Assembly (NCBI RefSeq): GCF_006636205.1
Contig: NZ_VIGB01000001.1
Location: forward strand, 1 to 64,000
Source: Kitasatospora acidiphila
Lineage (GTDB): Bacteria > Actinomycetota > Actinomycetes > Streptomycetales > Streptomycetaceae
Direction of reading: 5' to 3'
Length of the DNA stretch: 64,000 bases
The notes under the pieces were generated by a model. It saw only the letters and a list, made by a program, of their open reading frames with translations. It made no database searches and was not told the origin of the DNA. The position numbers and the translations under genes are program-made. Positions 29,370-56,690 of this stretch are shown one piece after another (positions within the stretch are counted from its first letter, which is position 1; the number at the start of each line of letters is the position of its first letter).

Positions 29370-31111
29370 CTACCCGAGGTGCAGCTCCCGCAGACGCTCC
29401 GGGCCCACCGGGCTCGGTGCGCCCATCAGCAGGTCCTGGGCGCTCTGGTTGAGCGGGAAGGCGATCGTCTCCCGGATGTTGGGCTCGCCGGCCAGCAGCA
29501 TCAGGATCCGGTCGATGCCCGGGGCGATGCCGGCGTGCGGGGCGCGCCGTATTGGAGGGCGCGGAGCATTCCGCCGAACTCCTGCTCCACCTGGGCCCGT
29601 TCATAGCCGGCGAGTTCGAAGGCGCGGAACATGATGTCCGGGTCGTGGTTGCGCACGGCACCGGAGGAGAGCTCGATCCCGTTGCACACGATGTCGTACT
29701 GCCAGGCCAGCACGGTCAACGGGTCCTCAGCATCGAGCGCGGCCAGCCCGCCCTGCGGCATCGAGAACGGGTTGTGGGAGAACGCGATCCGCCCGGTACC
29801 CGGGTCGCACTCGTACATCGGGAAGTCGACGATCCAGCAGAACCTGAATGCCTCCTCCCGGAAGCGGCCGGTGCGTTTGGCGGCCTCGACCCGGAGCTCG
29901 GCCATCACCGGGTCGACCTGGGAGCGCTCACCGCCGGCCAGCAGTACCGCAGTGCCGGGCTCGGCGCCGACCGCCCTCAGCAACAGCGTTTCCTGGTCCT
30001 GGGTCAGATGGTTGGCCAAGGGCCCGGTGACGTCCAGATCGGCGCCGAACCGGAGCCAGCCGATCCCCTCGGCGCCGTGCCGGACGGCGAAAGCGGCCAG
30101 CTCGTCGAAGAACCTGCGGGGCCGGTCCGCGGTGCCGGGCAACGCCAGCGCCCGCACGTGCCGGCCGGCCAGAGGAGTGAACGCGGAGGCGGTGAAAACG
30201 GTTGAAACGTCGACCAGTTCGAGTTCCGCTCGGAGATCGGGCTTGTCGGTGCCGTACTTGAGCAGGCTGGTGCGGTACGGGATGCGTGGGAACGGGGAGA
30301 CGATCTCGCGACTGCCGCCGAAGCGGACGAACAGGTCGGTCATCACCCGCTCGACCACCGCGAAGACGTCTTCCTGCTCGACGAAGCTCATCTCGATGTC
30401 GAGCTGGTAGAACTCGCCGGGCGAACGGTCGGCCCGGGCGTCCTCGTCGCGGAAGCAGGGGGCGACCTGGAAGTAGCGGTCGAAGCCGGCCACCATCAGC
30501 AACTGCTTGAACTGCTGGGGTGCCTGCGGCAAGGCGTAGAAGGTACCCGGGTGCAGCCGGGAGGGGACGAGGAAGTCACGCGCACCTTCCGGGGAGGTGG
30601 CGGACAGGATCGGCGTGGCCAGCTCGTGGAAGCCCAGCGAAGCCATGGTGCCGCGCAGGAAGGCGATCACCTCCGAGCGCAGCATGATGTTGCGGTGCAT
30701 CCGCTCCCGGCGCAGGTCGAGGAAGCGGTGGGTCAGCCGCTGCTCCTCCCCGACGTTGTCCTCGGGGAAGACCGGGAACGGCAGCGGGCGGGCGGTGCTG
30801 AGCGCTTCGACGGCGGTGACCTGAACCTCGATCTCGCCAGTGGCCAGCTCGGGGTTGACGTTCGGCGCGCTGCGGGCCGCCACCCGGCCGTCCACCCGCA
30901 GCACCGACTCGCGCGGCAGGGTGCGCAGCAGTTCGTAACCGGGACTGTTCGGGCGGACCCTGAGCTGCACCAGGCCGTAGTGGTCGCGTAGGTCAACGAA
31001 GAGGATGCCGCCGAGGTCACGGCGGTTGTGCAGCCAGCCGCTGAGGCGGACCTCGGTGTCGAGGTCGGCGGCGCGAAGGGCGCCGCAGGTGTGGGATCGG
31101 TAGGGATGCAT
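29370..31111 (-). CDS. aspS: Aspartyl-tRNA synthetase, last gene of the biosynthetic operon (one frameshift)
   Basis: Class II aspartate-tRNA ligase, about 580 residues once corrected. The N-terminal anticodon-binding OB fold starts [13 protein letters not shown]. Motif 2 ([20 protein letters not shown]), the bacterial GAD-type insertion, [37 protein letters not shown] and motif 3 ([19 protein letters not shown]) are all present. A missing C in a run at 29539-29542 shifts the frame before motif 3; the correct frame then ends ELHLG at 29370. The sequence is of the ordinary actinobacterial type but has a short C-terminus. Lying 62 bases behind a HAD gene in a biosynthetic operon, it is unlikely to be the housekeeping copy. 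Self-resistance to a product that targets AspRS is my leading inference; supplying Asp-tRNA is the alternative. Confidence 0.88.
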
Positions 31112-39600: not shown

Positions 39601-42600
39601 GCCGGACCGGGCCGCGCACCGGCCGCGGCCAGTCGGACGGCGCGGTGCGGCAGCGCCTTGCGGCCGGTGCGCAGCGTGTGCGCGGCGTCCGCGAGCTGCT
39701 CGCCGGAGGCCTCGTGCAGCACCTGGTCCAGACGCTCTGTCAGCTGCCGCAACTGCGCGGCGCTGCGGGCCGAGACGGCCAGCAGCTGCGGCTCCGCCGC
39801 GGTCGGCCCGGGCGGCTGGCGCGGCGGCTGCTCCAGTACGAGATGGGCGTTGGTGCCACCCACGCCGAGCGAGCTGACCGCCGCCCGCCGGACGGTCCCG
39901 GTCAGCCGAGCGGGCCGGTCGGCGACGACCCGGAACGGGGTCCGCGGGAAATCCGCGTGCGGGTTGGCGGTGCGGTGGTTGACCGTGGGCGGTAGTTCAC
40001 CCGTGCGCACCACCAGGGCCGCCTTGATCAACGCGGCGACACCCGCCACGGTGTCGGTGTGCCCGATGTTCCCCTTCACCGAGCCGATCGGGCAACCCTG
40101 CCGAGGCAGGCCCGGCTCCAGCGCGTCCCAAGCCGCGCTGAGTGCCGCGACCTCCAGAGGGTCGCCCAGCGCGGTGCCGGTGCCGTGCGCCTCCACGTAA
40201 CCGATCTGCGAGGGCCGCAGGCCCGCGTCGGCGAGCGCCGCGCGCACCACCGCCTGCTGGCCCGGCACACCGGGAGCGGTGAAGCCGGCCTTGGCGGCCC
40301 CGTCGTTGTTGACGGCGCTACCGCGCACCACGGCGTGGATCCGGTCGCCGTCGCGCAGCGCGTCGCCGAGCCGTTTTAGCACCACCACGCCAGCGCCGCC
40401 GGTGAAGACCGTACCGTCGGCGTCGGCGTCGAACGGCCGGCAGCGGCCGCCGGCCGAGACGATTCCGCCGGGTTCGTACCAGTATCCGGTGTCCGCCGGG
40501 ACCCGCAGCGAGACCGCGCCGGCCAGCGCCGCCCGGCACTCACCCGCGCGCAGGCTGCGCACCGCCAGGTGGACGGCGACCAGCGAGGTCGAGCATGCGC
40601 TCTGCACGGTGATGCTCGGCCCGGTCAGGTCGAGCTTGTAGGAGACCCGGGTGGCCAGGAAGTCCTTGTCGTTGGCGATCAGCAGCTGGAGCGCGTCCGA
40701 TGACCCGCCGAGCAGCGCTGCCAGGCCGCCCTGCGGGTCGAGCGCCTCCCGGTTCGGCAGCAGGTTGTGCAGCAGGTAGCCGTTGTGGCCGCTGCCCGCG
40801 AAGACACCGATCGCCGCGCGCTCGCGGTGGGGGTCGATCGCCGCATCCTCCAGCGCCTCCCAGCAGGTCTCCAGGAAGACCCGGTGCTGAGGGTCCATCA
40901 GCTCCGCCTCACGGGGGCTGTAGCCGAACAGCTCGGCGTCGAAGCGGTCGTACTCGGGCACCGGGCCGTACGCGGCCACCGGGTGGCCCGCCGGATCGCT
41001 CGCGGCTCCGTCGGCCGACGGCTCGGCTGGGGTGGTGAGCAGGTCGGTCCCGGCGAGCAGGTGCCGCCAGTACTCCTCGACGGTCCGCGCACCGGGCAGC
41101 CGGCAGGCCATGCCCACGATCGCGATCGGCTCGTCCCCGGTCGTCCGGTCCGGGTTGTCCGGCGCCGCGTCGGCCTCCGGTGGGGCGGCGGAGCCCAGCA
41201 GTCGCTCCAGGTGTGCGGCCTGGTCCCGCAGCGTCGGATAGCGGAAGAAGTCGGCGATGGGCAGCTCGACGCCGAGCTGCTCGCGCACCCGCCGGCGCAG
41301 GGTCATCAGCTGGAGCGAGTCGCCGCCGTGCTGCTGGAAGCCGACCGACCAGTCCAACTCCGCCACCCCCAGCACCCGACGCCACAACCCCGCCAACACC
41401 TCCACCACCGACCCACCGACCACCGCCGACGACTCCCCCACCACCTCCACACCCACCACCGACGCCACCAACCCCGCCAACGCCCGCCGATCCGTCTTCC
41501 CGTTCACCGTCACCGGCAGCCCCTCCACCACCACCACCGACCCCGGCACCGACCCACCCGGCAACACACCCGCCACGAACCGACGCACCCCACCCACCAA
41601 CCCACCACCCCAACCCGCCACCGGCACCACACACCCCACCAACCGACCACCCACCACCACCGCAGCACCAGCCCGCACCCCCGGATGCGCCACCAACGCC
41701 GCATCCACCTCACCCAACTCCACCCGATGACCCCGCACCTTCACCTGGTCATCCACCCGCCCATGAAAACGGAACAACCCGTCCCCACCCAACGACACCA
41801 CATCACCCGTCCGATACAACCGCCCCGCCCCCACCACCACACCCGACACAAACCGCTCAGCCGTCAAATCCGGCCGCCCCAATACCCCAACGCCAACCCG
41901 GCACCACCCACCCACAACTCACCCCGCACCCCGGCGGCACCAACCGCCCCACACCATCCACCACAAACGCCTGACAATTCGCCACCAGGGAGCCCAACGG
42001 CGGCTCCTGGTCGGCGAGCGCCGGGTCCGCGGACCAGAAGAGGGTGTCGATGGTGGCCTCGGTCGGACCGTAGAGATTGGTCAGCCGTGCCCGGCTGACG
42101 GCGGTGAACCGGCGCACCACCGTGGCGTCCAGGCGCTCTCCGCCGCAGAAGACCTCGCGCAGGCTCTCGCAGTGCTCCAGGCCGCCCTCGTCGAGCAGCG
42201 CGCCTAGCATGGCGGGCACGACCTGCAGGATGGTGACGCCGGCCGCGCGGGTCTGGGCCAGTAGCGCGGCCGGATCGCGGTGCGATCCGGGTTCGGCGCA
42301 GACCACGGTGGCGCCGGCCGACAGCGGCAGGAAGAACTCCCAGACCGAGGCGTCGAAGCTGATAGGGGTCTTCTGCAGCACCCGGTCGCCCGGGCCGACC
42401 GCGAACTCCCGGCGCATCCACTCCATGTGGTTGGCGACGGCGCCGTGCGGGACCATCACGCCCTTCGGCCGCCCCGTCGAACCCGACGTATACATCACAT
42501 ACGCCAACTCCTCCGGACCCACCTCCACACACACCCCACCACCAGCAGCAACCCCCAACCCTCAACCTCCCCCACCGACAACACCCGCACACCCGAACCC

Positions 42601-44646
42601 TCCAACCACGACAAACCCCCCGCATCCCCCAACACCACCCCCGGACCACAATCCCCCACCATCAACCGCAACCGCTCCACCGGATACTCCACATCCAACG
42701 GCACAAACGCAGCCCCCGCCCGCCACACCCCCAACAACGCCACCACCAGATCAACCCCCCGCCCCACCGCAACCCCACCACATCCCCCGCCCAACCCCCG
42801 CAGCCACCAACCCCGCAGCCACCAACCCCGCCCGCACATCCAACTCACCGAACGACAACACCCCACCCACACCACACACCGCCACCGACCCACCAGCAAC
42901 AACACCCCACCCCGCCACAACCCCCGCCAAACCCCTGAAACCAAAACCCCCAACCGAACCGTTCACCCGCGCAACCAACCCCACATCCCCAACCCCCAAC
43001 ACCGACAACCCACCAACCACACCCCCACCACCCACCACCACCGCACCGCGCAGCCAGGAGAGCATGCGCTCGCCGAGCAGCCGGGTGTCCTGGGCGGTTA
43101 GCTCGGTCGGGTCGGTCCACCAGGTGTACGAGGTCTCTCCCGGGTCGGCGACCAAAGCCAGCCGGCGGCCGGCCGCGAGCCCGGCCGCCTGCGCGGACGT
43201 CAGGCCGAAAGCGAGCAACGGGTTGTCGCTGCTCCCGCGGGCGGCGATGCGGCGCAGCGCCGGCGTGCGGTCCACCAGGTCGACGGGGTAGGGGCCGAGC
43301 GCGGTGTGACGGTGGATCAGGCGGGTCACACCCTCGATCGCCGCACCCACCGTGCCGGCGACCTCGGCCTCCGGAGCGGCACACAGCATGTCGGTCAGCA
43401 GGCCGCGGCCGAGGCCGGCGAGGTGGCGCAACCGGTCGTTGCTCCACCACAGTTCGGCCGGGCTGTGGCCGCTGGCGGTCACCACGTCCTGGTAGGCAGC
43501 GGCCACCGCGGCGGCGGGGGACCAGCCGCGTGCCGCCAGGTCCGCGCGCAGCTGCGTGTCGAGGGTGAAGCGCTCCCCGGTCGGCCGGCTCCGCCGCCGA
43601 GCGGGCGGGTCGCCGACCGGGCGGCGGGCGAGCAGCCGCGCCAGGCTCGCAGTCCAGCGCCGCTCAGCGGGCGCGGCCCGCTGGCACAGCTCGCGCAGGG
43701 CGCGGCGGTCCGCCTCGGCGAGCGCGGGCAGGCGGGTGCCCGGCGGCAGCGCGGCCGCGGTGTCCGCGGTGTCGTCAGCACCCGCCGAGTCTGCGGCGCC
43801 GCGCGCCGGCCGGAGTGCGACCCGCACGTCGAAGTCGGCGGTGGCGACGGTCAGTCGGCCGCCGTGGATCGCCGTGACGGTGCCCGGCTCGGCCGTCGAT
43901 GCCCGGTCGGTCACCGTCAACTCGTCGAGGAGCAGCAGCCCGTCGGGCCCCAGGGTCTTCGGGGCGGCGACCGGGTTGCCGGTCGGGCCGAAGCTCAGGG
44001 AGCGGACATGGCGGTCGAGCAGGGCGGCGGGCCATCCCCAGTCGACGAGTCCGCCGCCGGACGGCCGGGTCTGCAGGGCATTGAAGGTGCGCCGCGACAG
44101 GTCCTGGGGGATCGCGCGCGGGCCACCGCCGCGCAGGCCGGCCACCAGGTCGTGGAAGGAGGAGACCGACGCCTCGAAGCAGCGGGCGTTGAGGGTGACG
44201 GCCGTATCGTCCGGTTCGATCGGCACCTCGCGCTGGGCCAGCACGCCCCCGGAGTCGATCGGCCCCTCCAACAGGTGCCAGGTCACCCCGTGCGTGGTGG
44301 CCCCGTCGGCGATGGCCCAGGTGGTGGCGTAGTAGCCGGCCAGCGCCGGCAGTGGGGAGTCGTGGTAGTTGACCGCCGCAAGCCGGGTGGCGCGTCGCAC
44401 GGCCTCGGGGATCATCCGGCAGTTGACGATGTTGAACAGGTAGTCGTGCGAGGGGACTTCGAAGGGGCGGGTGGGCTCCGACCAGTCGTGGACGGACAGC
44501 CCGGCCTGCCCGGCCCAGTCGGCCAGCGCCCGGTCGGCAGTGAGTATCCCGAGGACCGGGTGCCCCTGCGCGAGCAGGTGCTCGGCACAGGCGCGGGCCA
44601 GCGGACCGCTGCCGACCAGGTAGGCCGTGAGGAGGGAGCTGTGCAT
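36672..44646 (-). CDS. Hybrid NRPS-PKS: F - half-C - A(Gln) - T - KS - AT(mal) - KR - ACP, frameshifted in the A domain
   Basis: About 2650 residues. F domain: formyltransferase with catalytic Asn93/His95 (NYHDSPLP) and Asp131 (GPIDSGG). Residues about 360-530 resemble only the second half of a condensation domain. The A domain (about 43050-41360) has core YTSGSTGRPKG; its specificity residues read DAWQFGLIDK, a code I remember for glutamine. T is FQQHGGDSLQLM. KS has SACSTSL, EAHGTGT and GNIGHT. AT has GHSVGE and RAFHTAAM, the malonyl-type motif. KR has GGGRLG and AYAAGN. ACP is LGGDSLAATRV. There is no thioesterase. Five one-base losses in C runs (near 42770, 42783, 42557, 41930 and 41878) split the frame; the parallel copy at 46-48 kb shows the correct lengths. 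Predicted unit: N-formyl-glutamine extended by one reduced malonate, a statine-like gamma-amino-beta-hydroxy acid. Confidence 0.88.
37018..37583. repeat. 26-bp direct repeat inside the KR/ACP region
   Basis: The 26 bases at 37018-37043 recur exactly at 37558-37583, 540 bp apart, keeping the reading frame. Both encode RQDRWGGR. Key part: GCCCCAGCGGTCCTGGCG. One copy lies in the KR, the other in the linker before the ACP. Confidence 0.85.
41313..41984 (-). repeat. Duplicated A-domain C-terminal segment, copy 1a
   Basis: Codes for the A-domain C-terminal part plus the start of the T domain. It matches 46225-46898 almost base for base. The differences I saw are one substitution near 41812 and two shorter C runs here (4 instead of 5), giving 672 against 674 bases. 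Confidence 0.85.
42439..43049 (-). repeat. Duplicated A-domain N-terminal segment, copy 1b
   Basis: Matches 47341-47953 almost exactly. The differences I saw are one substitution near 42961 and four C-run length changes. The stretch between 1a and 1b, which codes the substrate-binding core, is unlike its counterpart. Confidence 0.85.
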
Positions 44647-44734
44647 GTCTAGTCCTCGGCTGCTCTTGTTGACGGGGCCCTTGGCGACGGGCGGCGGAAG
44701 GGCTGTGGAGCGCGGTTGGTGAAGGTGGGGTCGG

Positions 44735-47700
44735 TCAGCGGGGTGGCAGCAGGGCGGTCAGCTGCCGCGCGAAGCCATCGGCGAGGCTCGCGACGGTGCG
44801 GCTGCGGTGCAGGCTCTCGCTGTACTGGAGTTCCAGGACGAGCCGGCCCCGCCGGACGAAGATCCGCAGCTGGAGCACGCTGCCCCGGTCCTCCTGCGGG
44901 CTGAACCGGTCGGTGATCCGCTCCTCGGCGGGCCGCCACTGCCCTGGTCGGGGGACGGCGACGTCCTCCCGGCCGAGGTAGTTGAAGTTGATCTCGGGGG
45001 TGGGCAGCGACCGCATCCGCCGACGCAGCGGCTCCGCGGCCAGGTGCCGCAGGATGCCGTAGCCGTAGCCGTGCCGGGGGGTCGCGGCCAGTCGGTCCCT
45101 GACCCGCGCGAGCAGCGTCTGCCCGGGTGCCGCCGCGGTGGGCAGGACCAGTGGGTAGTCGATGGACAGCCAACCCAGCGTGGACCGCAGGTCCCCTCCG
45201 GTGCCCAGGCCGTGGCGCCCGTGGTGCAGCATCCGCAGCGCCGTCGTCGGCGCGCCGCTCCAGTCGCCGTAGGCCGCCGCGAAGGCGGTGAGCAGGAGTT
45301 CCTGGGTGGTCGCGCCGTCGGCCCAGGAGTGCGGTTCCAGCAGTCGGGTGGTGGCCGCGGCGTCCAGCGCCCGTTCGACGGTACGCGCGGTGCCGGCGGT
45401 GTTCCGGCCGGCCGTCAGGTCCCGCGGTACCGGGGCCACTCGGCTCAGGCTGAGGGATTCCCAGTACCGCACCTCGTCCGCGACACCGGGGTCCGAGGCC
45501 TCCGCCTCGACGGTGCGGGCCCAGTCGCCGAACTGGGTGCCCGGCGGCCGGTCGTCCGCAGCGGGCCGTCAACCGACGGACTGGACGTCAGTTTTGCATA
45601 GGTGCACGCCAGTTCGCTCAGAAAGGCCTGCCAGGACCAGGCATCCATCACCAGGTGGTGGGCGATGACCAGGATCCGCGGCCGTGCCTCGCCCCTCACC
45701 CGCAGCACCACCACCTTGGCCACCGGCCCGCGGACCAGGTCGATCGTGCGCTGCTGGCTGCGCGCCTCCGCCTCGATCACGGTCCGCACATCGGCGCCGG
45801 CACAGTCCAGCTCGCGGCTCTCCACCGCGACCCGGGGCTCCGGCACCAGGGTCTGGCGCCACTCGCCGGTGCCGCCGGACGGGGCGGTGAAGGCGAGCCG
45901 CAGCGCCTCGTGGCGCCGGGCGACCAGCCGCAGCGCCGCACCGAGCCGGTGCTCGTCGACGGGATCGGCCTCGTCGGGCCGGAAGAGCCCGGCGAGGTTG
46001 GCCCAGTTGTGGTCGGGGCGGGGGCGGGCGAAGAAGTCGTGCTGCATGGGCAGCAGCGGCAGCGGGCCGCTGGACGTACGGTCCGGCCGCACCAGCCCGG
46101 TCGCCGCCGGGTCGAGGGCGGCCGCGGCCCGGGCCGCCTCGGCCAGCGAGTCGGCCCGCAGCAGCGTGGCCGCGGTCAGCGCTATGCCGCGGGTGCGGGC
46201 CTGGGCGGCCGCCTGGATGGCCTTGAGCGAGTCGCCGCCGTGCTGCTGGAAGCCGACCGACCAGTCCAACTCCGCCACCCCCAGCACCCGACGCCACAAC
46301 CCCGCCAACACCTCCACCACCGACCCACCGACCACCGCCGACGACTCCCCCACCACCTCCACACCCACCACCGACGCCACCAACCCCGCCAACGCCCGCC
46401 GATCCGTCTTCCCGTTCACCGTCACCGGCAGCCCCTCCACCACCACCACCGACCCCGGCACCGACCCACCCGGCAACACACCCGCCACGAACCGACGCAC
46501 CCCACCCACCAACCCACCACCCCAACCCGCCACCGGCACCACACACCCCACCAACCGACCACCCACCACCACCGCAGCACCAGCCCGCACCCCCGGATGC
46601 GCCACCAACGCCGCATCCACCTCACCCAACTCCACCCGATGACCCCGCACCTTCACCTGGTCATCCACCCGCCCATGAAAACGGAACAACCCGTCCCCAC
46701 CCAACGACACCACATCACCCGTGCGATACAACCGCCCCGCCCCCACCACCACACCCGACACAAACCGCTCAGCCGTCAAATCCGGCCGCCCCCAATACCC
46801 CAACGCCAACCCGGCACCACCCACCCACAACTCACCCCGCACCCCCGGCGGCACCAACCGCCCCACACCATCCACCACAAACGCCTGACAATTCGCCAGA
46901 AGCCCGCCGACCAATCCGGCGTCCTCCGGGCCGGTGATCCGCCGGGCGGTGCACCAGACGGTGGCCTCGGTCGGGCCGTAGACGTTGAACACCTCGCAGT
47001 CGAAGGCCTGCTGGATGGTGTGCACCAGGTGCCCGGGCACGGGCTCGCCGCCGAGCAGGACGTACTTCACACCGCGCAGCAGCAGCCGCCAGGCCGGATC
47101 CTCGACGATCGCGGCCGCCAGGGTTGGCGTGCACTGGAAGTGGGTCACGCGATGCGGGGCCGCGGCGCTCCCCGGCCCGCCGGCCTCGCTCGGCGTACCC
47201 AACTGCACCCGCGCGCCGACGGCCAGCGGCCAGAACAGCTCCAGCAGGGCGATGTCGAAGGAGATGCTGGTGACCGCATGGAGGGTGTCACCGGGGGCGC
47301 AGCCGATCCGCTCCTGGAACGCCTGCACGACATTGCTGATGGCGCCGTGCGGGACCATCACGCCCTTCGGCCGCCCCGTCGAACCCGACGTATACATCAC
47401 ATACGCCAACTCCTCCGGACCCACCTCCACACACACCCCACCACCAGCAGCAACCCCCAACCCCTCAACCTCCCCCACCGACAACACCCGCACACCCGAA
47501 CCCTCCAACCACGACAAACCCCCCGCATCCCCCAACACCACCCCCGGACCACAATCCCCCACCATCAACCGCAACCGCTCCACCGGATACTCCACATCCA
47601 ACGGCACAAACGCAGCCCCCGCCCGCCACACCCCCAACAACGCCACCACCAGATCAACCCCCCGCCCCACCGCAACCCCCACCACATCCCCCCGCCCAAC

Positions 47701-49273
47701 CCCGCAGCCACCAACCCCGCAGCCACCAACCCCGCCCGCACATCCAACTCACCGAACGACAACACCCCACCCACACCACACACCGCCACCGACCCACCAG
47801 CAACAACACCCCACCCCGCCACAACCCCCGCCAAACCCCTGAAACCAAAACCCCCAACCGAACCATTCACCCGCGCAACCAACCCCACATCCCCAACCCC
47901 CAACACCGACAACCCACCAACCACACCCCCACCACCCACCACCACCGCACCGCAGGCGAGGGCATCCAGGGCGGCGAGGAGCGTGCGGGTGTCGGCGCTC
48001 GTGAGGGAACGACCGTCGCGTTCGACCCAGCCGGCCAGCACCGGAGCGGTGGCCTCGACCGAGACCGCGAGGTCGAACTCGGCGGCGCGGTCAGGGCCGG
48101 CCAGTGGCCGGGCCAGCACACCCGGCAGGTCGAGCACGGCCGGCGGCAGGTTCTGGAAGGCGAGCATGACCTGGTAGAGCGAGTCCCCGCCGGCGCGGGC
48201 CGCGGGGACGGCGGCGGCAACCCGGTCGGCCTCCAGCGGGCGGTGGTCCAGGGCGTCGTAGTGGGCAGTCTCGACGGCCAGGACCAGCTCCGCCAGGGTC
48301 ATCTCGTCGCGGACGTCGACCACCAGCACCAGGGTGTTGAGGAAGAGGCCGATGGTCCCCTCCTCCTCGGGGCCGCGGGTCGAGGTGGGGTAGCCGATGT
48401 GCACCGGCCCCGGGCCGTGCAGACGGTTCAGTGCGCAGGCCAGCAGCGCGGCGGTGACCACGAACTCGGTGGTGCCGAACTCATCGGCCAGCCGGCGGAC
48501 GGCGTCCGACGCCTCTGCGCCGAGTGCGAACGGCTCGGCCGGGGGCGGCGCGAGCAACTCGGCACCGGTGCCTGCGGGCTCCAGGACCAGCGGGGGACGG
48601 CCGGGCGGCGGGGTGAGCCGCGCGGTCCAGTACCCGAGGTTGCGGGCCCCCGCGCCGGCGGCCAGCCGGGCGGCCTCGGCCAACACGTGCCGCCGGAAGG
48701 ACCCGGCGGCCGGGGCCTGCGCCTCTTCCCGACGGACCGTCAGGCCACGGTAGTCGGCGGAGAGTTCGGCCAGCAGCAGGCCGGCGGACCAGCCGTCGAA
48801 GACCAGGTGGTGCACCAGGATCAGCAGGACGTGGCGCTGTGGGGCCAGCCGGAGCAGGTGCACCCGCAGCAGCGGCGGCCGGTCCAGCTCGAACGGCCGA
48901 GCGGCGGCTGCGGCCAGCCACTCCCGGGTGTGCAGCTCGGCGGACTGCTCATCCAACCCGGGCGGCGCGGTGGCCAGTTCGACCGGACAGTCGGCCACCT
49001 TGCGGATCTCCTGCACCAGGCCCTCTGCGGTCAGCCGGAAGCCCGTGCGCAGCGCCTCGTGGCGCCGCACCACGCCGTCCAGGGCGGCGCGCAGCGCGTC
49101 CGGATCGACCCTGCCCTCCAGGGCGTAGGTGAGCTGCAGGGTGTAGGCGCGCGGGTCGCCGTTCACCTCGGCGTGGAGCCACATGAGGCGTTGCTCCACC
49201 GAGAGGGGAACTCGGTGGAGGTCTGCCGCGCGCGGCCGGGCATCGCCTGGTCACCGGCAAGGACGTCCATCAT
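44735..49273 (-). CDS. NRPS: C - A(Gly) - T - E-like, frameshifted
   Basis: About 1510 residues. The C domain has HHLVFDGWS (HHxxxDG intact). The A domain (about 47950-46320) has YTSGSTGRPKG, ISFDIALLELF and VYGPTEATVW; the specificity residues read DILQLGVVWK, closest to codes known to me for glycine. T is FQQHGGDSLKAIQ. The last domain has HHLVMDAWSW, LGWLSIDYPLVLP and INFNYLGRE, so it is epimerase-like, though its HHxxxDG reads HHxxxDA. Start ATG 49273 (MMDVLAGDQ) follows AGAGGAG. Three single-base losses break the frame: C run near 49206, C run near 47696 and near 45560. There is no thioesterase. Transcribed before the hybrid gene, but biosynthetically its C domain probably accepts the hybrid gene's chain. 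An E domain after a glycine module is odd. Confidence 0.85.
46225..46898 (-). repeat. Duplicated A-domain C-terminal segment, copy 2a
   Basis: Partner of 41313-41984. Here the C runs have the lengths that keep the frame open, so this copy shows the true sequence of the shared segment. Confidence 0.85.
47341..47953 (-). repeat. Duplicated A-domain N-terminal segment, copy 2b
   Basis: Partner of 42439-43049. One C run (near 47698, 4 instead of 5) is short here, the others are short in the partner, so each copy reveals the errors of the other. Confidence 0.85.
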
Positions 49274-51136: not shown

Positions 51137-51240
51137 CCTTCGGCACACGCCGAGGATCAGCCACCGCGCACGGCCTGATCCCGGCCGCCCGTCCGGACGG
51201 CTTGTCGCGACGGGTGGCCGGCCCGGGGCCGGCGCACTGA

Positions 51241-51272
51241 GGGGGGTGTGGTTGGGCCCGACCACACCCCCC
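51241..51272 (+). terminator. Hairpin between peptide and transporter genes
   Basis: GGGGGGTGTGGT-TGGGCCCG-ACCACACCCCCC, a perfect 12-bp stem without a U tract. It probably acts as an attenuator that keeps precursor mRNA more abundant than transporter mRNA. Confidence 0.6.
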
Positions 51273-51307
51273 GGCACTGCCGCTATTCGCCGAAAGGGAC
51301 AGCCAGG

Positions 51308-53587
51308 ATGACCACTGGACCACGCTTCCGGGCCGAGGCCCTCGCGCACCACCAGCGGGCCGACGGCCTCGGACCGGTGCTTGGCCATGCCCCCTCGGCC
51401 CACCGCCCGCGCGACGCGCGCGAGCGACTGCGCTCCGCGGCGGCCCGGCTGCGCAGCCGTAGCGGCCCGCGCATCCCGGTCTGCTACCAGACCCAGGTCA
51501 GCGACTGCGGCCCGGCCAGCCTAGTCATGACGCTGCGTCACCACGGCATCGAGGCCGATCTCGACGCCGTGCGGGCCCGCGCGGACGCCGGACGCAACGG
51601 AGCATCGGCGCGCACCCTGCTCGAACTCGGCCGCAGCTTCGGCCTCAACGGCCGCGGCGTGCGCACCGATCTCGACGGGCTGACGCACCTGCCGCCCGGC
51701 ACCATCCTCTTCTGGAACTTCAACCACTTCGTGGTGCTGGAATCGGCGACCGAGCACCACGTGGACATCGTCGACCCGGCCGCCGGCCGCCGACGGCTGA
51801 GCCGGTCCTCGGTCGCCGAGGCCTTCACCGGTGTGGCGCTGGAGTTCGACCGACCGCTGGCCGGTGCGGGCGGGGGCCGCCAAGGGCGCCCGGCCCAGGC
51901 CGCGAGCCCCTGGCGGCAGTTGCTGCGGCTGGTCCCACGCGGCCGCGAGCTGCGCCGGCTAGCCGCCGCCTCGGCGGCTCTGACCGCCTTCGAGTTCGTG
52001 CTGCCGCTCACCGTCAGCTACCTGGTCGGCCAAGTGCTGCCGAACCGGCGGACCGGACTGCTCTGGCCGGTCATCACTGGCCTGGGCGTGCTTTGCCTGC
52101 TCTTCCTGCTCCTCCAGGTGATCCGCTCCTTCCTGGTGACCCGACGTCAGGCCAGCGTCGAAAAGGAGCTGACCTGGGGGGTGATGACGCACCTGGCCTC
52201 ACTGCCCTACGACTTCTTCACCGTGCACAACGCCGGCGACCTTGCCATGCGAGTGCGGACCAGCAGTGTGCTAAACCAGGTGCTGAGCCTCACCGCCGTC
52301 TCGGCGATCTTCGACAGCGCGCTGATCGCGGTCTACCTGGCGGCCATCGTCGTCGCCGATCCGGCGCTCGCCGCGCTGGTGGTGCTGTTGATCCTGCTTC
52401 AGGTCCTGGTGCTGTCGTTCGCCTGGCGCCGACAGGCCGAGTTGAGCCATGAGGTGCTGGAGCGTCAGACCAAGACCCAGGACCAGCTGGTGGAGCTCCT
52501 GGAGAGCATGACCACGCTCAAGGCCGCGGGCCTGGAGGCGGCCGCCGCGGAACGCTGGTCGCACACGCTGGTGCGCGAGGTCAACAAGCGGCTGACCGCC
52601 CGGCGGAACGCCGCGCTCACCACCTCGGTCAGCCGGGCGATCCAGTTCACCGCACCGGTCGCAGTCCTGCTGGCCGGTGCCTGGCGGGTGCTTGCAGGCC
52701 ACGGCTCGCTGGGTGACACCCTGGGCTTCATGGCGCTGACGATCGCGCTCTTCGCACCGCTGGAGGGCATGTTCACCGCCGCCGCCCAGCTGGCCGCGAT
52801 CCGGCCGGCGCTGGCCCGGCTCGACGACCTGCTGCGCAGCCCGGCCGAGCCGGGCGGCCTGCCGCTGCCCGCGGCCGGACCGGGCCGCCTCACCGCCGAG
52901 GCCGTGTCGTTCCGCTACCGCGGTGCCCCCGCCCCGTCGCTCTCCGGCGTCGACCTGGACATCGCCCCGGGCAGCTTCGTGGCGATCATCGGCCGCTCCG
53001 GCTCCGGGAAGTCCACCCTGGGCATGCTGCTGGCGGGGCTCCACCTGCCGACCTCCGGCACCATCCGGGCGGACGGAATCGACCTGACCGAACTGGATCG
53101 CCCCGCGTACCGCCGGGAGATCGGCTACGTCAACCAGAACGCCCACCTCTTCGGCGGTTCGATCAGGGAGAACATCGCCTTCGGCGGCGACGACGTCAGC
53201 CCCGCCGACCTCAAGGAAGCGGTCCGGCTGGCCCGGATCCACGAGGACATCGCGGCACTGCCGCTCGGCTACGACACCCTGGTCGGACCGGGCGGGCACG
53301 GCCTCTCCGGCGGGCAGCGGCAGCGTGTGGTGCTGGCCCGGGCCCTGGCCAGGAAACCGCGGCTGCTGGTGCTCGACGAGGCCACCAGCGCGCTGGACCC
53401 CGCGCTGGAGGAGGAGATCCTCGGCGGGCTGCTCGGGTCGGGCATCACGGTGGTGGCGATCGCACACCGGCTGACGGTACTGGAGCGCGCCGACCACGTC
53501 GTGGTGATCCGCGACGGCCGGATCGTCGAGGCCGGAACGCCAGGTGAACTGCTCGCCCGCGGAGGGGAGTTCCTGTGTCTGACCTGA
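51308..53587 (+). CDS. Peptidase-containing ABC transporter (C39 PCAT)
   Basis: A 759-residue bacteriocin-type exporter. The N-terminal C39 peptidase (residues about 55-190) has the catalytic Cys in QVSDCGPASLVMTLRHH, His in FWNFNHFVVLE and Asp in VDIVDPAAGRR. A six-helix membrane domain follows (about 210-500). The ATPase has IIGRSGSGKSTLGML, LSGGQRQRVVLARALARKPRLLVLDEATSALD and AIAHRLTVLE. It cleaves a double-glycine leader while exporting the peptide. Start ATG 51308 follows AAAGGGACAGCCAGG. The stop overlaps the start of the condensation-like gene by 13 bases. Its partner is almost certainly the 32-residue peptide upstream. Confidence 0.92.
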   Translation: MTTGPRFRAEALAHHQRADGLGPVLGHAPSAHRPRDARERLRSAAARLRSRSGPRIPVCYQTQVSDCGPASLVMTLRHHGIEADLDAVRARADAGRNGASARTLLELGRSFGLNGRGVRTDLDGLTHLPPGTILFWNFNHFVVLESATEHHVDIVDPAAGRRRLSRSSVAEAFTGVALEFDRPLAGAGGGRQGRPAQAASPWRQLLRLVPRGRELRRLAAASAALTAFEFVLPLTVSYLVGQVLPNRRTGLLWPVITGLGVLCLLFLLLQVIRSFLVTRRQASVEKELTWGVMTHLASLPYDFFTVHNAGDLAMRVRTSSVLNQVLSLTAVSAIFDSALIAVYLAAIVVADPALAALVVLLILLQVLVLSFAWRRQAELSHEVLERQTKTQDQLVELLESMTTLKAAGLEAAAAERWSHTLVREVNKRLTARRNAALTTSVSRAIQFTAPVAVLLAGAWRVLAGHGSLGDTLGFMALTIALFAPLEGMFTAAAQLAAIRPALARLDDLLRSPAEPGGLPLPAAGPGRLTAEAVSFRYRGAPAPSLSGVDLDIAPGSFVAIIGRSGSGKSTLGMLLAGLHLPTSGTIRADGIDLTELDRPAYRREIGYVNQNAHLFGGSIRENIAFGGDDVSPADLKEAVRLARIHEDIAALPLGYDTLVGPGGHGLSGGQRQRVVLARALARKPRLLVLDEATSALDPALEEEILGGLLGSGITVVAIAHRLTVLERADHVVVIRDGRIVEAGTPGELLARGGEFLCLT

Positions 53588-54897
53588 GCACTCCGCTCAC
53601 CGCCGAGCGGCTCCCGCTCGGTTACGAGCAGGACTGGTACCAGGCGAACACCCGGGGTGGCACCGGCGCCCACAAGAACGTCCGGATCTCCTTCCGGATC
53701 CTCGGCCCGCTGGTCCCGGAGGCCCTCGACGAGGTCGTCCGACGCTTCACCGCCCGACATGACGCGCTCCAGCTGCAACCGCTGCCGGGGCCTGATGGCA
53801 CCGGAACCACCGGGCAGTACCTGCGCCCGTTGGGAGCCGGGGAGCCGGTCATGCTGCGCGAGAGCGTCACCGCGCGCTCGGCCGAGCAGTTCTCGCGCTA
53901 CGCCTCCGCCCTGCTCTCCCGGGACTTCACCGCCCCCTGGGCCGGTGACGGCGACCGGCCGTTCCGCGTGCGGTTGCTGCGCTACGAGCCGGACCACCAT
54001 GCGCTGTTGGCCACCTTCCAGAACCTGGTGTTCGACGGGCGCGCGCACCACCTGTTCGCCAGTGAACTGTGGCGGGACTACCAGGCGCTGGTCCAGGGCG
54101 ATCCGGTGCCGGACACCGCCCCGTCCTTTGCCGCCGCCGTGGCCCGCCAGCGCACCGGCTTCGGGCCGGAGCACCTGGCCCGGGCCCGGGCGAGCTGGCG
54201 CAAGCGCCTGGAGTTCGCCGCCCGCCATCCCTGGCGGCAGCCGGCCTCCGCGGCGCCGACCGAAGGTGGAACGCTCCGGATCGAGCTTCCCGCACGTGCC
54301 TGGCCGGCCCTGCGGGAGCGCTGCGCCGAAGCGCGCTGCAGCGTGTCGCAGTGGGTCATCGCCGCCTTCGTCCGGGCAGTGGCCGGGCAGGCCGGACTGC
54401 GCCGGGTCGCCCTGTGGACCACGATGGACTCGCGAGGCTTCCGCGATCGGGACCTCGTCGGGATGCTGGCCGGCACCTGCCCCGTGGCCGTGCGCGATCC
54501 GGCCGCCGCGCTGCCCGCCGTGCTAGCCGAGGTGCGGGCCCGACTGCTGGAGGCACTGCGGTACCAGCAGTTGACCGCCGCGGAACTCCACGGGCTGGCC
54601 GCGGAGCTGGCCGCGGGCGGCGGCGCGTCGCTGGCCCGCGACATCTTCGTCAGCCTGCGCCGCTTCGACGGGGAGTACCCGGTGACCCGTGAGCAGCGGG
54701 CGCTGCGGATCACCGCGGACGCCTACCCGCTGCGCCGGATCGCCTTCACCGGCTCCGCCGCCCTGCACCTGCGCTGCACCGAGTTCCGGGACCGCCTCCT
54801 CATCGACCTCACGTTCGACGGCCCCCGGGTCGGCCGTCTGCTGGCGCAAGCCATCGCCGACCAGCTGGGCAACGACCTCATGACGGACCGGCCCTAA
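53575..54897 (+). CDS. Stand-alone condensation-domain-like protein lacking HHxxxDG
   Basis: A 440-residue protein of the chloramphenicol-acetyltransferase/NRPS condensation superfamily. It begins LGYEQDWYQANTRGG where C domains have the SxAQxRLW motif, and has DEVVRRFTARHDALQLQ as in C2. The active-site motif is FQNLVFDGRAHHLFASELW: the two His of HHxxxDG are replaced by Gln-Asn while the Asp-Gly is kept. The C-lobe reads VSQWVIAAFVRAVAGQAG and MLAGTCPVAVRD. Without the second His it should not catalyse classical amide formation; it may bind an acyl carrier or use another mechanism. Start GTG 53575 overlaps the transporter stop, so production is coupled to it. Confidence 0.75.
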   Translation: MSDLSTPLTAERLPLGYEQDWYQANTRGGTGAHKNVRISFRILGPLVPEALDEVVRRFTARHDALQLQPLPGPDGTGTTGQYLRPLGAGEPVMLRESVTARSAEQFSRYASALLSRDFTAPWAGDGDRPFRVRLLRYEPDHHALLATFQNLVFDGRAHHLFASELWRDYQALVQGDPVPDTAPSFAAAVARQRTGFGPEHLARARASWRKRLEFAARHPWRQPASAAPTEGGTLRIELPARAWPALRERCAEARCSVSQWVIAAFVRAVAGQAGLRRVALWTTMDSRGFRDRDLVGMLAGTCPVAVRDPAAALPAVLAEVRARLLEALRYQQLTAAELHGLAAELAAGGGASLARDIFVSLRRFDGEYPVTREQRALRITADAYPLRRIAFTGSAALHLRCTEFRDRLLIDLTFDGPRVGRLLAQAIADQLGNDLMTDRP

Positions 54898-54961
54898 CAG
54901 CCACCGCTGCCCGGCCTCCGGCCGCGGGCCACCCCATCGCGGGAGCCCTCACACCTCGTCC

Positions 54962-55007
54962 GCGGCGGCGGGGGCCGCCCCCGCCGCCGCCCCGGCTGAA
55001 GCCGGGG
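54962..55007 (+). promoter_or_regulatory. Two tandem perfect hairpins before the carrier-protein gene
   Basis: GCGGCGGCGGGGG-CCG-CCCCCGCCGCCGC (54962-54990) and CCCCGGCT-GA-AGCCGGGG (54990-55007) sit side by side 20 bases before the ACP start. They could be a terminator/attenuator or an mRNA-stabilising end that separates the operon into two parts. Confidence 0.55.
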
Positions 55008-55026
55008 TATCCACGAAAGGACCCTG

Positions 55027-55290
55027 ATGAGCATCCCCAGCCCAGCACCCGGCCACCTCCTCGCCCTGCTGCTGGACGCCGCCGCCCAGGTGTTCGGCCG
55101 ACCGGTTGCCGCGCACGACAGCTTCTTCGAGCTGGGCGGCGACTCGATCGCCGCGGTCGAGCTCGCCACTGTCGCCGAGCGACTGACCGGCATCGAGGTC
55201 GACACGGAACTCATCGTCGAGCAAGCGGACTTCACGGCCCTGGCGGCCGCCCTGACGCCTGCCTCGACAGCACCGGAGGCTGCCCGATGA
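55027..55290 (+). CDS. Stand-alone acyl/peptidyl carrier protein
   Basis: An 87-residue carrier protein. DSFFELGGDSIAAVELATVAERL contains the phosphopantetheine serine (GGDS) in the usual place, near residue 40. The sequence is closer to NRPS-type PCPs (LGGDSI) than to fatty-acid ACPs. Start ATG 55027 with GAAAGGA. Its stop overlaps the ligase start by four bases, so the two are a matched pair. It should hold the acyl group activated by one of the two downstream AMP-forming ligases. Confidence 0.9.
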   Translation: MSIPSPAPGHLLALLLDAAAQVFGRPVAAHDSFFELGGDSIAAVELATVAERLTGIEVDTELIVEQADFTALAAALTPASTAPEAAR

Positions 55291-56690
55291 GCCAACCGTA
55301 CCTCTGGGACCCGTGGGCGACGGCCGCCGAACAACCCGAGCGCACCGCCGTCATCGCCGACGAGGAACGCTGCAGCTACCGCGAACTGGTCCGCACTGCG
55401 GACGCATTCGCCGCAGGCCTGCAAGCGCACCGGGTACCGGCCGGCGCGACGGTGTCCACCGACATCCCCACCGGGCCGCTCTTCTTCGCGCTGGCGCTCG
55501 CCGCCCTGCGCCACGGCTACGGCCTGCTACCGGTCGGCCGCGCCTTGCTCGCCTCCGCGACGGGCCACGCGGTACTGCGGAGCATGACGGTGGTCCTACA
55601 TGTGATGGACGATCAGCCCGCCCGGTGGGCCACGCCCATGCCGCCCTGTCCCGTGCTGACCGCCACCGAGCTGACCGCCGCCGGTGCGGCGGTGCGGCCG
55701 CCGACCCCGGCAGCGCGGGCCGGCTACCTGGCCTTCACCACCTCCGGAACGACCGGCGAGCCCCAGGGCGTACCACGCCCCCGCCCACCTCGTCCCTACA
55801 GGGGCGTTGCGGTGGCCGAGCGATACGGCGCGGGCCGCGACCTGGGCCCGCACCTGATGGCCAACCCCAGCTACCACCTGGGCACGCTGGGCCCCGCGCT
55901 CTATGCGCTGCAGGCCGGCAGCGCGGTCGTCGTCCAGCGCAGTTGGTCGCCCTGCGCCTTCGCCGAGCTCGTCGACCGACACCGAGCGGACAGTGCGATG
56001 CTCAGCCCCGACCGGCTGCTCGACCTGGTCGGCGCCGGGCGGGCACCCGCCCGGCGGCTGCGCGTCCTGTTCCACGGCGGAGCCGCCTGCCCGCCCGCGG
56101 TCAAGCGCGCCGCGATCGAACTGCTCGGTCCAGTGCTGCACGAGTACTACGGCACCTCCCGGGGCACGCTGACGGAGATCACCGTCCCGCAGTGGCTGGC
56201 GCATCCAGGCTCGGTTGGCCGCCCGTTGGCGGGGATCGGGATCGAGATCCTCGCCGCGGGCCGGCCGGTGCCGGCCGGCGAGCTCGGCTCGGTGCACGCC
56301 CGGCTGCGCGGTGCGGATCGCGCCGCGGGCGAACCCGACCTGCTGGACACCGGCGACATCGGATTCCTGGACCCCGACGGCTACCTCTTCGTCGTGGGCC
56401 GCACCGGGCAGCGCGACCCGCTGGGGGAGCCGCTGCTTGAGCACGGGATCCGCCTGTTGAACGGCGTCTTCGACGTCGCCGTCCTGGGCGGCGCCGATCA
56501 GCACTGCTTCGTCGAGAGCAGCCGCTCCGACACCGCCGGACTCAGCGCGGAGGTCGCCGCGACCGCCCGCCGCCTCGGCCTGCTCCCACCGCGGCTCACC
56601 GTCGCACCGCCGGGCTCCCTGCCACGGACCCCGAGCGGCAAGATCCACCGGGCCGGGCTGGCCGGGCAACGCGCCGCACAGGGCAGTTGA
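55287..56690 (+). CDS. AMP-forming acyl ligase (ANL superfamily) with altered P-loop
   Basis: A 467-residue adenylate-forming enzyme. Motifs: FTTSGTTGEPQGV, where the usual Lys of TSGTTGxPKG is Gln; HEYYGTSRGTLTEI; DTGDIGFLDPDGYLFVVGR; and LPRTPSGKIHR with the C-terminal catalytic Lys. It is shorter than typical A domains, like benzoate/CoA-ligase-type or OSB-type ligases. Start overlaps the ACP stop and its end overlaps the FAAL start. It presumably loads the neighbouring carrier protein. Substrate cannot be read reliably; the Lys-to-Gln change may lower but not abolish activity. Confidence 0.8.
   Translation: MSQPYLWDPWATAAEQPERTAVIADEERCSYRELVRTADAFAAGLQAHRVPAGATVSTDIPTGPLFFALALAALRHGYGLLPVGRALLASATGHAVLRSMTVVLHVMDDQPARWATPMPPCPVLTATELTAAGAAVRPPTPAARAGYLAFTTSGTTGEPQGVPRPRPPRPYRGVAVAERYGAGRDLGPHLMANPSYHLGTLGPALYALQAGSAVVVQRSWSPCAFAELVDRHRADSAMLSPDRLLDLVGAGRAPARRLRVLFHGGAACPPAVKRAAIELLGPVLHEYYGTSRGTLTEITVPQWLAHPGSVGRPLAGIGIEILAAGRPVPAGELGSVHARLRGADRAAGEPDLLDTGDIGFLDPDGYLFVVGRTGQRDPLGEPLLEHGIRLLNGVFDVAVLGGADQHCFVESSRSDTAGLSAEVAATARRLGLLPPRLTVAPPGSLPRTPSGKIHRAGLAGQRAAQGS

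Follow-up and report, generated by a model that had tools for sequence, protein, structure and literature searches.

Two adenylation (A) domains of one hybrid assembly line in Kitasatospora acidiphila share nearly identical flanking arms around unlike substrate-binding cores, and recombination that uncoupled the arms from the pocket is the most probable origin of this pattern (roughly 0.8, for transfer in either direction, with core replacement and arm copying included). The window, by which we mean the whole analyzed stretch of 64,000 nucleotides, is the start of contig C1 (NZ_VIGB01000001.1) of an 8.58-Mb genome in 3 contigs (GCF_006636205.1). Recombination is well supported because the edges of the arms are abrupt, the arms differ by only two synonymous substitutions, the pocket codes differ, and the same architecture is present in three other genomes. 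An earlier note on this DNA had proposed recombination or gene conversion of a substrate-binding subdomain. This reading is upheld in part: the abrupt edges and the recurrence support a separation of pocket from arms, and core exchange is only the likelier direction beside arm copying, as no deciding ortholog was found in the genomes searched.

Nearly identical arms enclose unlike cores

The two domains, A1 and A2, belong to two assembly-line genes that follow one another on the minus strand; the earlier note mentioned neither the strand nor the nucleotide skew of the arms. Their N-terminal arms (610 and 608 bp) are separated by one substitution (AAT/AAC) and four gap columns, and their C-terminal arms (674 and 672 bp) by one substitution (CGC/CGG) and two gap columns. 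Both substitutions are synonymous, and all six one-base gaps are differences in the length of G runs on the coding strand. The two substitutions in about 1,280 bp, besides run-length differences, that had been reported were thus recounted exactly, and the segment limits were right within a few bases by blastn and alignment. The blastn matches pair 41310-42074 with 46222-46982 at 95.0% and 42436-43089 with 47338-47993 at 96.8%, both figures including an extension past the block.

The segments between the arms do differ, as had been claimed: the cores of A1 and A2 (443 and 455 bp) are only 58% identical and of different lengths. The Gly-like and Gln-like codes of the earlier note, DILQLGVVW in A1 and DAWQFGLID in A2, were read again by alignment and from the translations. 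In Table 2 of PMC2866473, DAWQFGLIDK stands as a Gln code for tyrocidine synthetase, and DILQLG and DILQLGMIWK are reported for Gly in nocamycin (PMC5466765) and in a survey (PMC12283262), respectively. Judged by their codes, Gly is the predicted substrate of A1 and Gln that of A2.

Checking the breakpoints of both A domains in the alignment showed abrupt block edges. The arms cease to be identical 21 bp past motif A3; identity returns about 20 codons (62 bp) ahead of A6, which is 67 bp past the end of A5. Counted from code positions 235 and 322, these edges presumably correspond to about residues 206/207 and 352 in GrsA numbering. PMC7486941 locates the natural recombination hotspots of A domains in the A2-A4 interval and in the part that begins close to A5, and both edges agree with the breakpoints described there; arms and pocket also have different histories with abrupt breakpoints, as seen between the two copies only. 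Earlier laboratory cut points were T221/I352 and K205/A322 in two studies (cited in PMC7486941), so that the upstream natural edge falls near the cut point of one study and the downstream edge near that of the other. Partial A-domain swaps in the laboratory have generally been unsuccessful or inefficient, and those made in PvdD by the authors of that same paper gave no visible product (PMC7486941). Pairs that occur in nature, 99% identical in their arms but different in the pocket, offer sharply bounded test cases for pocket cut sites.

The arms are intensely skewed repeats

Read on the coding strand, GC skew in the arms is 0.59-0.70 and TA skew 0.60-0.70 (A1: 0.70 for both in the N-terminal arm, 0.59 and 0.60, respectively, in the C-terminal arm), and values for the cores and for the tested condensation (C), epimerization (E), formyltransferase (FT) and polyketide synthase (PKS) stretches range from -0.08 to 0.10. 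The four arms are the only blocks of the window longer than 250 bp with |GC| skew above 0.3 and |TA| skew above 0.2. G or T occupies 96% of third codon positions in the N-terminal arm of A1 (in-frame piece) and 92% in its C-terminal arm; the figures for the cores are 46% (A1) and 43% (A2). Likewise, G, V, L and W make up 54-55% of the residues of the A1 arms and 33% and 30% of those of the two cores. The window arms top the compared A domains in skew, yet they do not stand alone: mean skew is 0.68 in both N-terminal arms and 0.67 in the next domain, and 0.63 in both C-terminal arms and again 0.63 in the next one. A large nonribosomal peptide synthetase (NRPS) region of the same genome (G000, C3:2256000-2387000, L049-L055) is organized differently from the window pair, as most A domains found there are moderately skewed with the core included.

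Genetic repeats of intense nucleotide skews (GRINS) are described as segments, 500 bp or longer, that recur elsewhere in their assembly line at above 80% and often above 90% identity (PMC10394414, PMC9899208). Thresholds for both GC and TA skew are >0.15 (PMC9899208) or >0.25 (PMC10394414). The arms exceed these lengths and skews and are 99% identical. GRINS are described in assembly-line PKS or hybrid genes, and of the two genes here the second is a hybrid and the first, in the same cluster, a pure NRPS gene. By published sequence criteria, the arms are GRINS-like. They share with GRINS the repetition within one assembly line, identity above 90% and GC and TA skews above 25%, and they differ from those of PKS and hybrid genes in that they lie in NRPS A domains, are paired, and leave the pocket between them unrecoded.

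GRINS have been linked with gene conversion and discussed for PKS and PKS-NRPS hybrids (PMC10394414, PMC9899208), and with the diversification of acyltransferase (AT) domains (PMC11907408). Natural A-core exchange, for its part, is established (PMC9205934, PMC8097286, PMC7486941; see also PMC2174460). In the wollamide and desotamide systems, recombination inside the A domain replaced the pocket (WolG1 Gly, WolG2 Orn) with "common patterns of nucleotide skew" (PMC9205934); the paper notes skew shared by these NRPS genes, without using the term GRINS. That in-A recombination is of the same kind as the event proposed here; unlike in the known A-core exchanges, both partners belong to one cluster, and the arms are 99% identical and intensely skewed. 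In most cases a longer part of the A core is reported to be exchanged (PMC8097286), whereas the unit here is limited to the pocket. While GRINS are established for PKS, a link between pocket exchange and skewed repeats looks less explored. Our literature search, which did not include the original GRINS paper, found no paper on GRINS in A domains. The abstract of that paper (2021) is said to mention other gene families, and we do not claim priority. As a hypothesis, skewed repeats may promote exchange or gene conversion, the pattern alone being what we saw.

The same architecture recurs in related genomes

We compared A domains in 80 stretches from this and related genomes, chosen from matches to the skewed arms in searches with at most 8, or at most 2, scored candidates per genome. 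The sample comprised 233 A domains from 47 genomes and 1290 within-genome pairs, with the code aligned for 226 of the 233 domains and none for 7; A domains lacking motifs or located at region edges were dropped uncounted, and some matches were not fetched. Both arms were at least 95% identical in 15 of the 1290 pairs, far beyond chance. Four of the 15 have different codes, namely the window pair (core identity 0.58) and one pair each in G201 (0.57), G202 (0.73) and G312 (0.83). The mean skew of the cores in these four pairs is -0.10 to 0.14 in 7 of the 8 domains and 0.25 in the remaining one, G201 7187097.

The other 11 pairs share their core at 0.91 to 1.00, with the same code in nine and only one of the two codes resolved in two. 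Whole A-domain copies are thus common, which speaks for a rival origin in which a whole module or domain was duplicated in the window and its pocket then changed by point mutation under selection. We regard this origin as close to negligible for the window pair: a core of 58% identity and different length stands beside two substitutions in 1.28 kb of arms, the edges are sharp, and the surrounding modules differ, one containing an E domain and the other being an FT loading module.

When a shared arm was defined by at least 0.85 identity and an unlike core by less than 0.75, pairs with both arms shared and unlike cores occurred in 3 of the 47 genomes (our own, G201 and G202), and pairs counted on the C-terminal arm alone in 9 of 47. 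Sharing of the C-terminal arm across unlike cores was seen in 23 of 155 pairs in which the C-terminal arms of both domains had a skew of at least 0.25, in none of 195 with both below 0.15 and in none of 810 mixed pairs. For the N-terminal arm, the corresponding counts were 5/420, 0/114 and 2/626. Because an arm common to two domains has a single skew value, few mixed pairs are to be expected here. The inner C-side edge could be placed in 24 pairs; in 14 of them, from 8 genomes, it falls 53-84 bp ahead of A6. Skew blocks that adjoin unskewed cores stop at similar places: on the C side, 43-81 bp ahead of A6 for 16 of 26 domains, and on the N side, 20-95 bp short of the A3 end for 12 of 13. A layout that recurs around skewed repeats provides a testable link between GRINS, so far mainly a PKS matter, and pocket exchange in NRPSs.

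As a control, we took A domains of the TIGR01733 family from six congeners, chosen regardless of skew. Its 28 regions were hand-picked, mostly clusters with at least two A domains, and a motif search recognized 41 domains (182 pairs), many listed domains being either not fetched or not recognized. Skew of at least 0.25 was rare (C-terminal arm, 2/41; N-terminal arm, 0/41).

Core replacement or arm copying

Core replacement, which we hold to be slightly more likely than not, is the direction that we prefer. Gene conversion or duplication would first have carried an A domain with skewed arms from one of the two modules into the other. The pocket segment of one copy, about residues 207 to 352 (GrsA numbering, counted from the code residues), would then have been replaced through homologous recombination, which would yield one Gly-type and one Gln-type module. 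The skew of the N-terminal arms ends 20 bp before the end of A3 and their identity 21 bp behind A3. As the shared N-terminal arm continues about 40 bp past the presumed end of the skew, the copied domain probably already had an unskewed core, so that one exchange would have been enough.

Alternatively, Gly and Gln A domains may have pre-existed and had their arms overwritten separately by gene conversion, the unlike cores blocking the heteroduplex so that no pocket was exchanged. Arms do occur singly shared, as in the best pairs of G039, G149, G293 and G321, where C-terminal arms are 0.96-1.00 and N-terminal arms 0.58-0.77 identical, and both window cores have the normal composition of their surroundings. 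Arm copying, however, requires two conversion tracts that end at the two pocket edges, and we consider it possible but doubtful. In G201, domains 7182682 and 7187097 have identical N-terminal arms and cores (1.000) and C-terminal arms at 0.778. Domain 7173100 matches 7187097 in both arms (N-terminal, 0.989; C-terminal, 1.000) but has an unlike (0.571), unskewed core. A skewed core common to two modules and absent from a third with nearly the same N-terminal arm is more simply explained by one core replacement, and this sequence comparison favors pocket replacement for the G201 cluster.

The A domains of this G201 region (C1:7173100-7187097, L151) are mosaics of the same arms and cores and make it the clearest case for tracing moved segments.

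Points that weigh against recombination

Several observations count against recombination of the pocket, or against its tie to skewed arms. To begin with, an ortholog of the cluster was not found: when the FT DNA (43200-44500) was compared with 70 genomes of the genus, our own included, the best others among the matches listed were partial, at 66-67% (G059, G063), and the remaining listed matches were short, 5 candidates being scored per genome. The FT protein retrieved 10 loci from the genome contigs, the best at 40% in a delta-proteobacterial metagenome-assembled genome (MAG) and at 37% in a Rhizobacter MAG, by a method that finds close relatives.

A donor core did not appear either. At E <= 1e-40 the A1 core matched 1 of 297 genomes, itself, and the A2 core 20 of 297 including itself, the others being at most 54% identical; the best core matches are about 45% for A1 and 52-54% for A2. 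Among plasmid records, the best place had less than 60% protein identity in all matched ones (963/963 for A2, 351/351 for A1), and Burkholderia glumae supplied the longest DNA match to window positions 41000-48500, with 235 bases at 75.6%.

The rates of the main sample are biased, as its stretches were fetched by similarity to skewed arms and regions with two hits were preferred. The edges also vary. Relative to A6, the remaining 10 of 24 C-side edges are found at -183 and between +24 and +163 bp, and the two C-side edges in the control at +75 and +30. On the N side, the edge precedes the A3 end by 95 bp in G059 and by 203 bp in G018. In G312, moreover, the cores are still 83% alike.

Finally, unlike cores with shared arms turned up in the control as well. 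The N-terminal arm was shared in 2 of 153 pairs with both arms below 0.15, and the C-terminal arm in 1 of 164 such pairs and 1 of 14 mixed ones. In G001, domains 1279741 and 1273369 have identities of 0.86, 0.55 and 0.90 (N-terminal arm, core, C-terminal arm) with unskewed N-terminal arms and C-terminal skews of 0.34 and 0.21, and 1273369 and 1270201 have 0.89, 0.55 and 0.83. In G006, 2273185 and 2270020 share the C-terminal arm at 0.87 with skews of only 0.14 and 0.08. A-core exchange thus does not need GRINS, as arms were shared across unlike cores in this set despite its rare skew.

Skew as a requirement for exchange, which we had considered, was rejected on these weakly skewed or unskewed pairs of G001 and G006; skew may still affect how often exchange happens. 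It is a tentative idea, with the odds rather against it, that paired GRINS are standing exchange arms in the NRPS A domains of this actinomycete family. Recoded DNA prone to conversion would hold both arms identical from module to module and leave the pocket free, so that any A3-A6 pocket could be inserted. If true, the paired layout would favor substrate diversification.

An assembly or polishing artefact, in which the arms of one A domain were corrected with reads of the other, must also be weighed. A3 and A6 are out of frame in 6 of 37 A domains of this genome and in 4 of 237 elsewhere, which speaks for indel errors, and mis-mapped reads could raise the apparent likeness of the arms. However, the copies are kept apart by two substitutions and six different G-run lengths, and the same architecture is found in G201, G202 and G312, each listed as one contig. 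We consider such an artefact very improbable.

The locus and its genes

The features of the locus are collected in Table 1. Both genes are interrupted several times by indels, in gene 2 within the A domain.

Table 1. Features of the two assembly-line genes (window coordinates)
Feature	Position	Strand	Remarks
Gene 1, C-A1(Gly-type)-peptidyl carrier protein (PCP)-E	~49250..44738	minus	Limits approximate; several frameshifts; Pfam and NCBIfam matches on frame pieces, translations
A1 N-terminal arm, from about the A-domain start to just behind A3	47342..47951	minus	Skewed repeat; 99% identical to 42440-43047
A1 substrate core, motifs A4-A5	46899..47341	minus	Code DILQLGVVW from alignment, Gly-type; GC skew -0.01
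A1 C-terminal arm, starting about 62 bp ahead of A6 and reaching PCP motif GGDSL	46225..46898	minus	Skewed repeat; 99% identical to 41313-41984
Gene 2, FT-A2(Gln-type)-PCP-ketosynthase (KS)-AT-ketoreductase (KR)-PCP	ATG 44646..~36675	minus	Limits approximate; A-domain frameshifts; Pfam/NCBIfam, translations
A2 N-terminal arm	42440..43047	minus	Skewed repeat; partner of 47342-47951
A2 substrate core	41985..42439	minus	Code DAWQFGLID from alignment, Gln-type
A2 C-terminal arm	41313..41984	minus	Skewed repeat; partner of 46225-46898

The last C-like domain of gene 1 matches TIGR01720 in frame pieces. This E domain (window 44738-46100, minus strand) keeps the HHxxxD motif as HHLVMDAWSW. The glutamate of the EGHGRE motif is catalytic in E domains, and alignment with PvdL places LHHGRH at this position. 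With this glutamate of active E domains lost, the domain is probably idle, judging from its sequence.

A Gly-type pocket beside an E domain is an odd combination, as Gly has no stereocenter. The best PDB matches of the A1-PCP-E piece are to the linear gramicidin synthetase LgrA, whose module 2 reportedly takes Gly and has an idle E domain. An idle E domain with a Gly pocket fits a change of pocket and fits the reported state of LgrA equally well. We had taken the Gly core in an E-domain module as proof of a swap, and weakened this to mere compatibility in view of the same combination reported for LgrA, the nearest solved structure. The likeness extends to a formylation-A-PCP loading unit and a C-A-PCP-E unit; unlike in LgrA, these are split over two genes in another order, and a PKS module follows. 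The FT of the window is only distantly like that of LgrA (E 2e-4), sugar and Met-tRNA formyltransferases scoring better.

A second aspartyl-tRNA synthetase (AspRS) gene lies near the cluster (window 29376-31111, minus strand; 481 and 53 bits in two frame pieces), the probable housekeeping copy being located at C3:1400273-1402000 (708 bits). A duplicated target enzyme next to a cluster can confer self-resistance. The extra AspRS may, as a lead only, be such a gene, in which case the cluster product would act on AspRS. On the plus strand, window positions 51179-56690 encode, one after another, an ABC transporter carrying a C39 peptidase domain, a stand-alone condensation-domain protein and an acyl-CoA synthetase-like protein.

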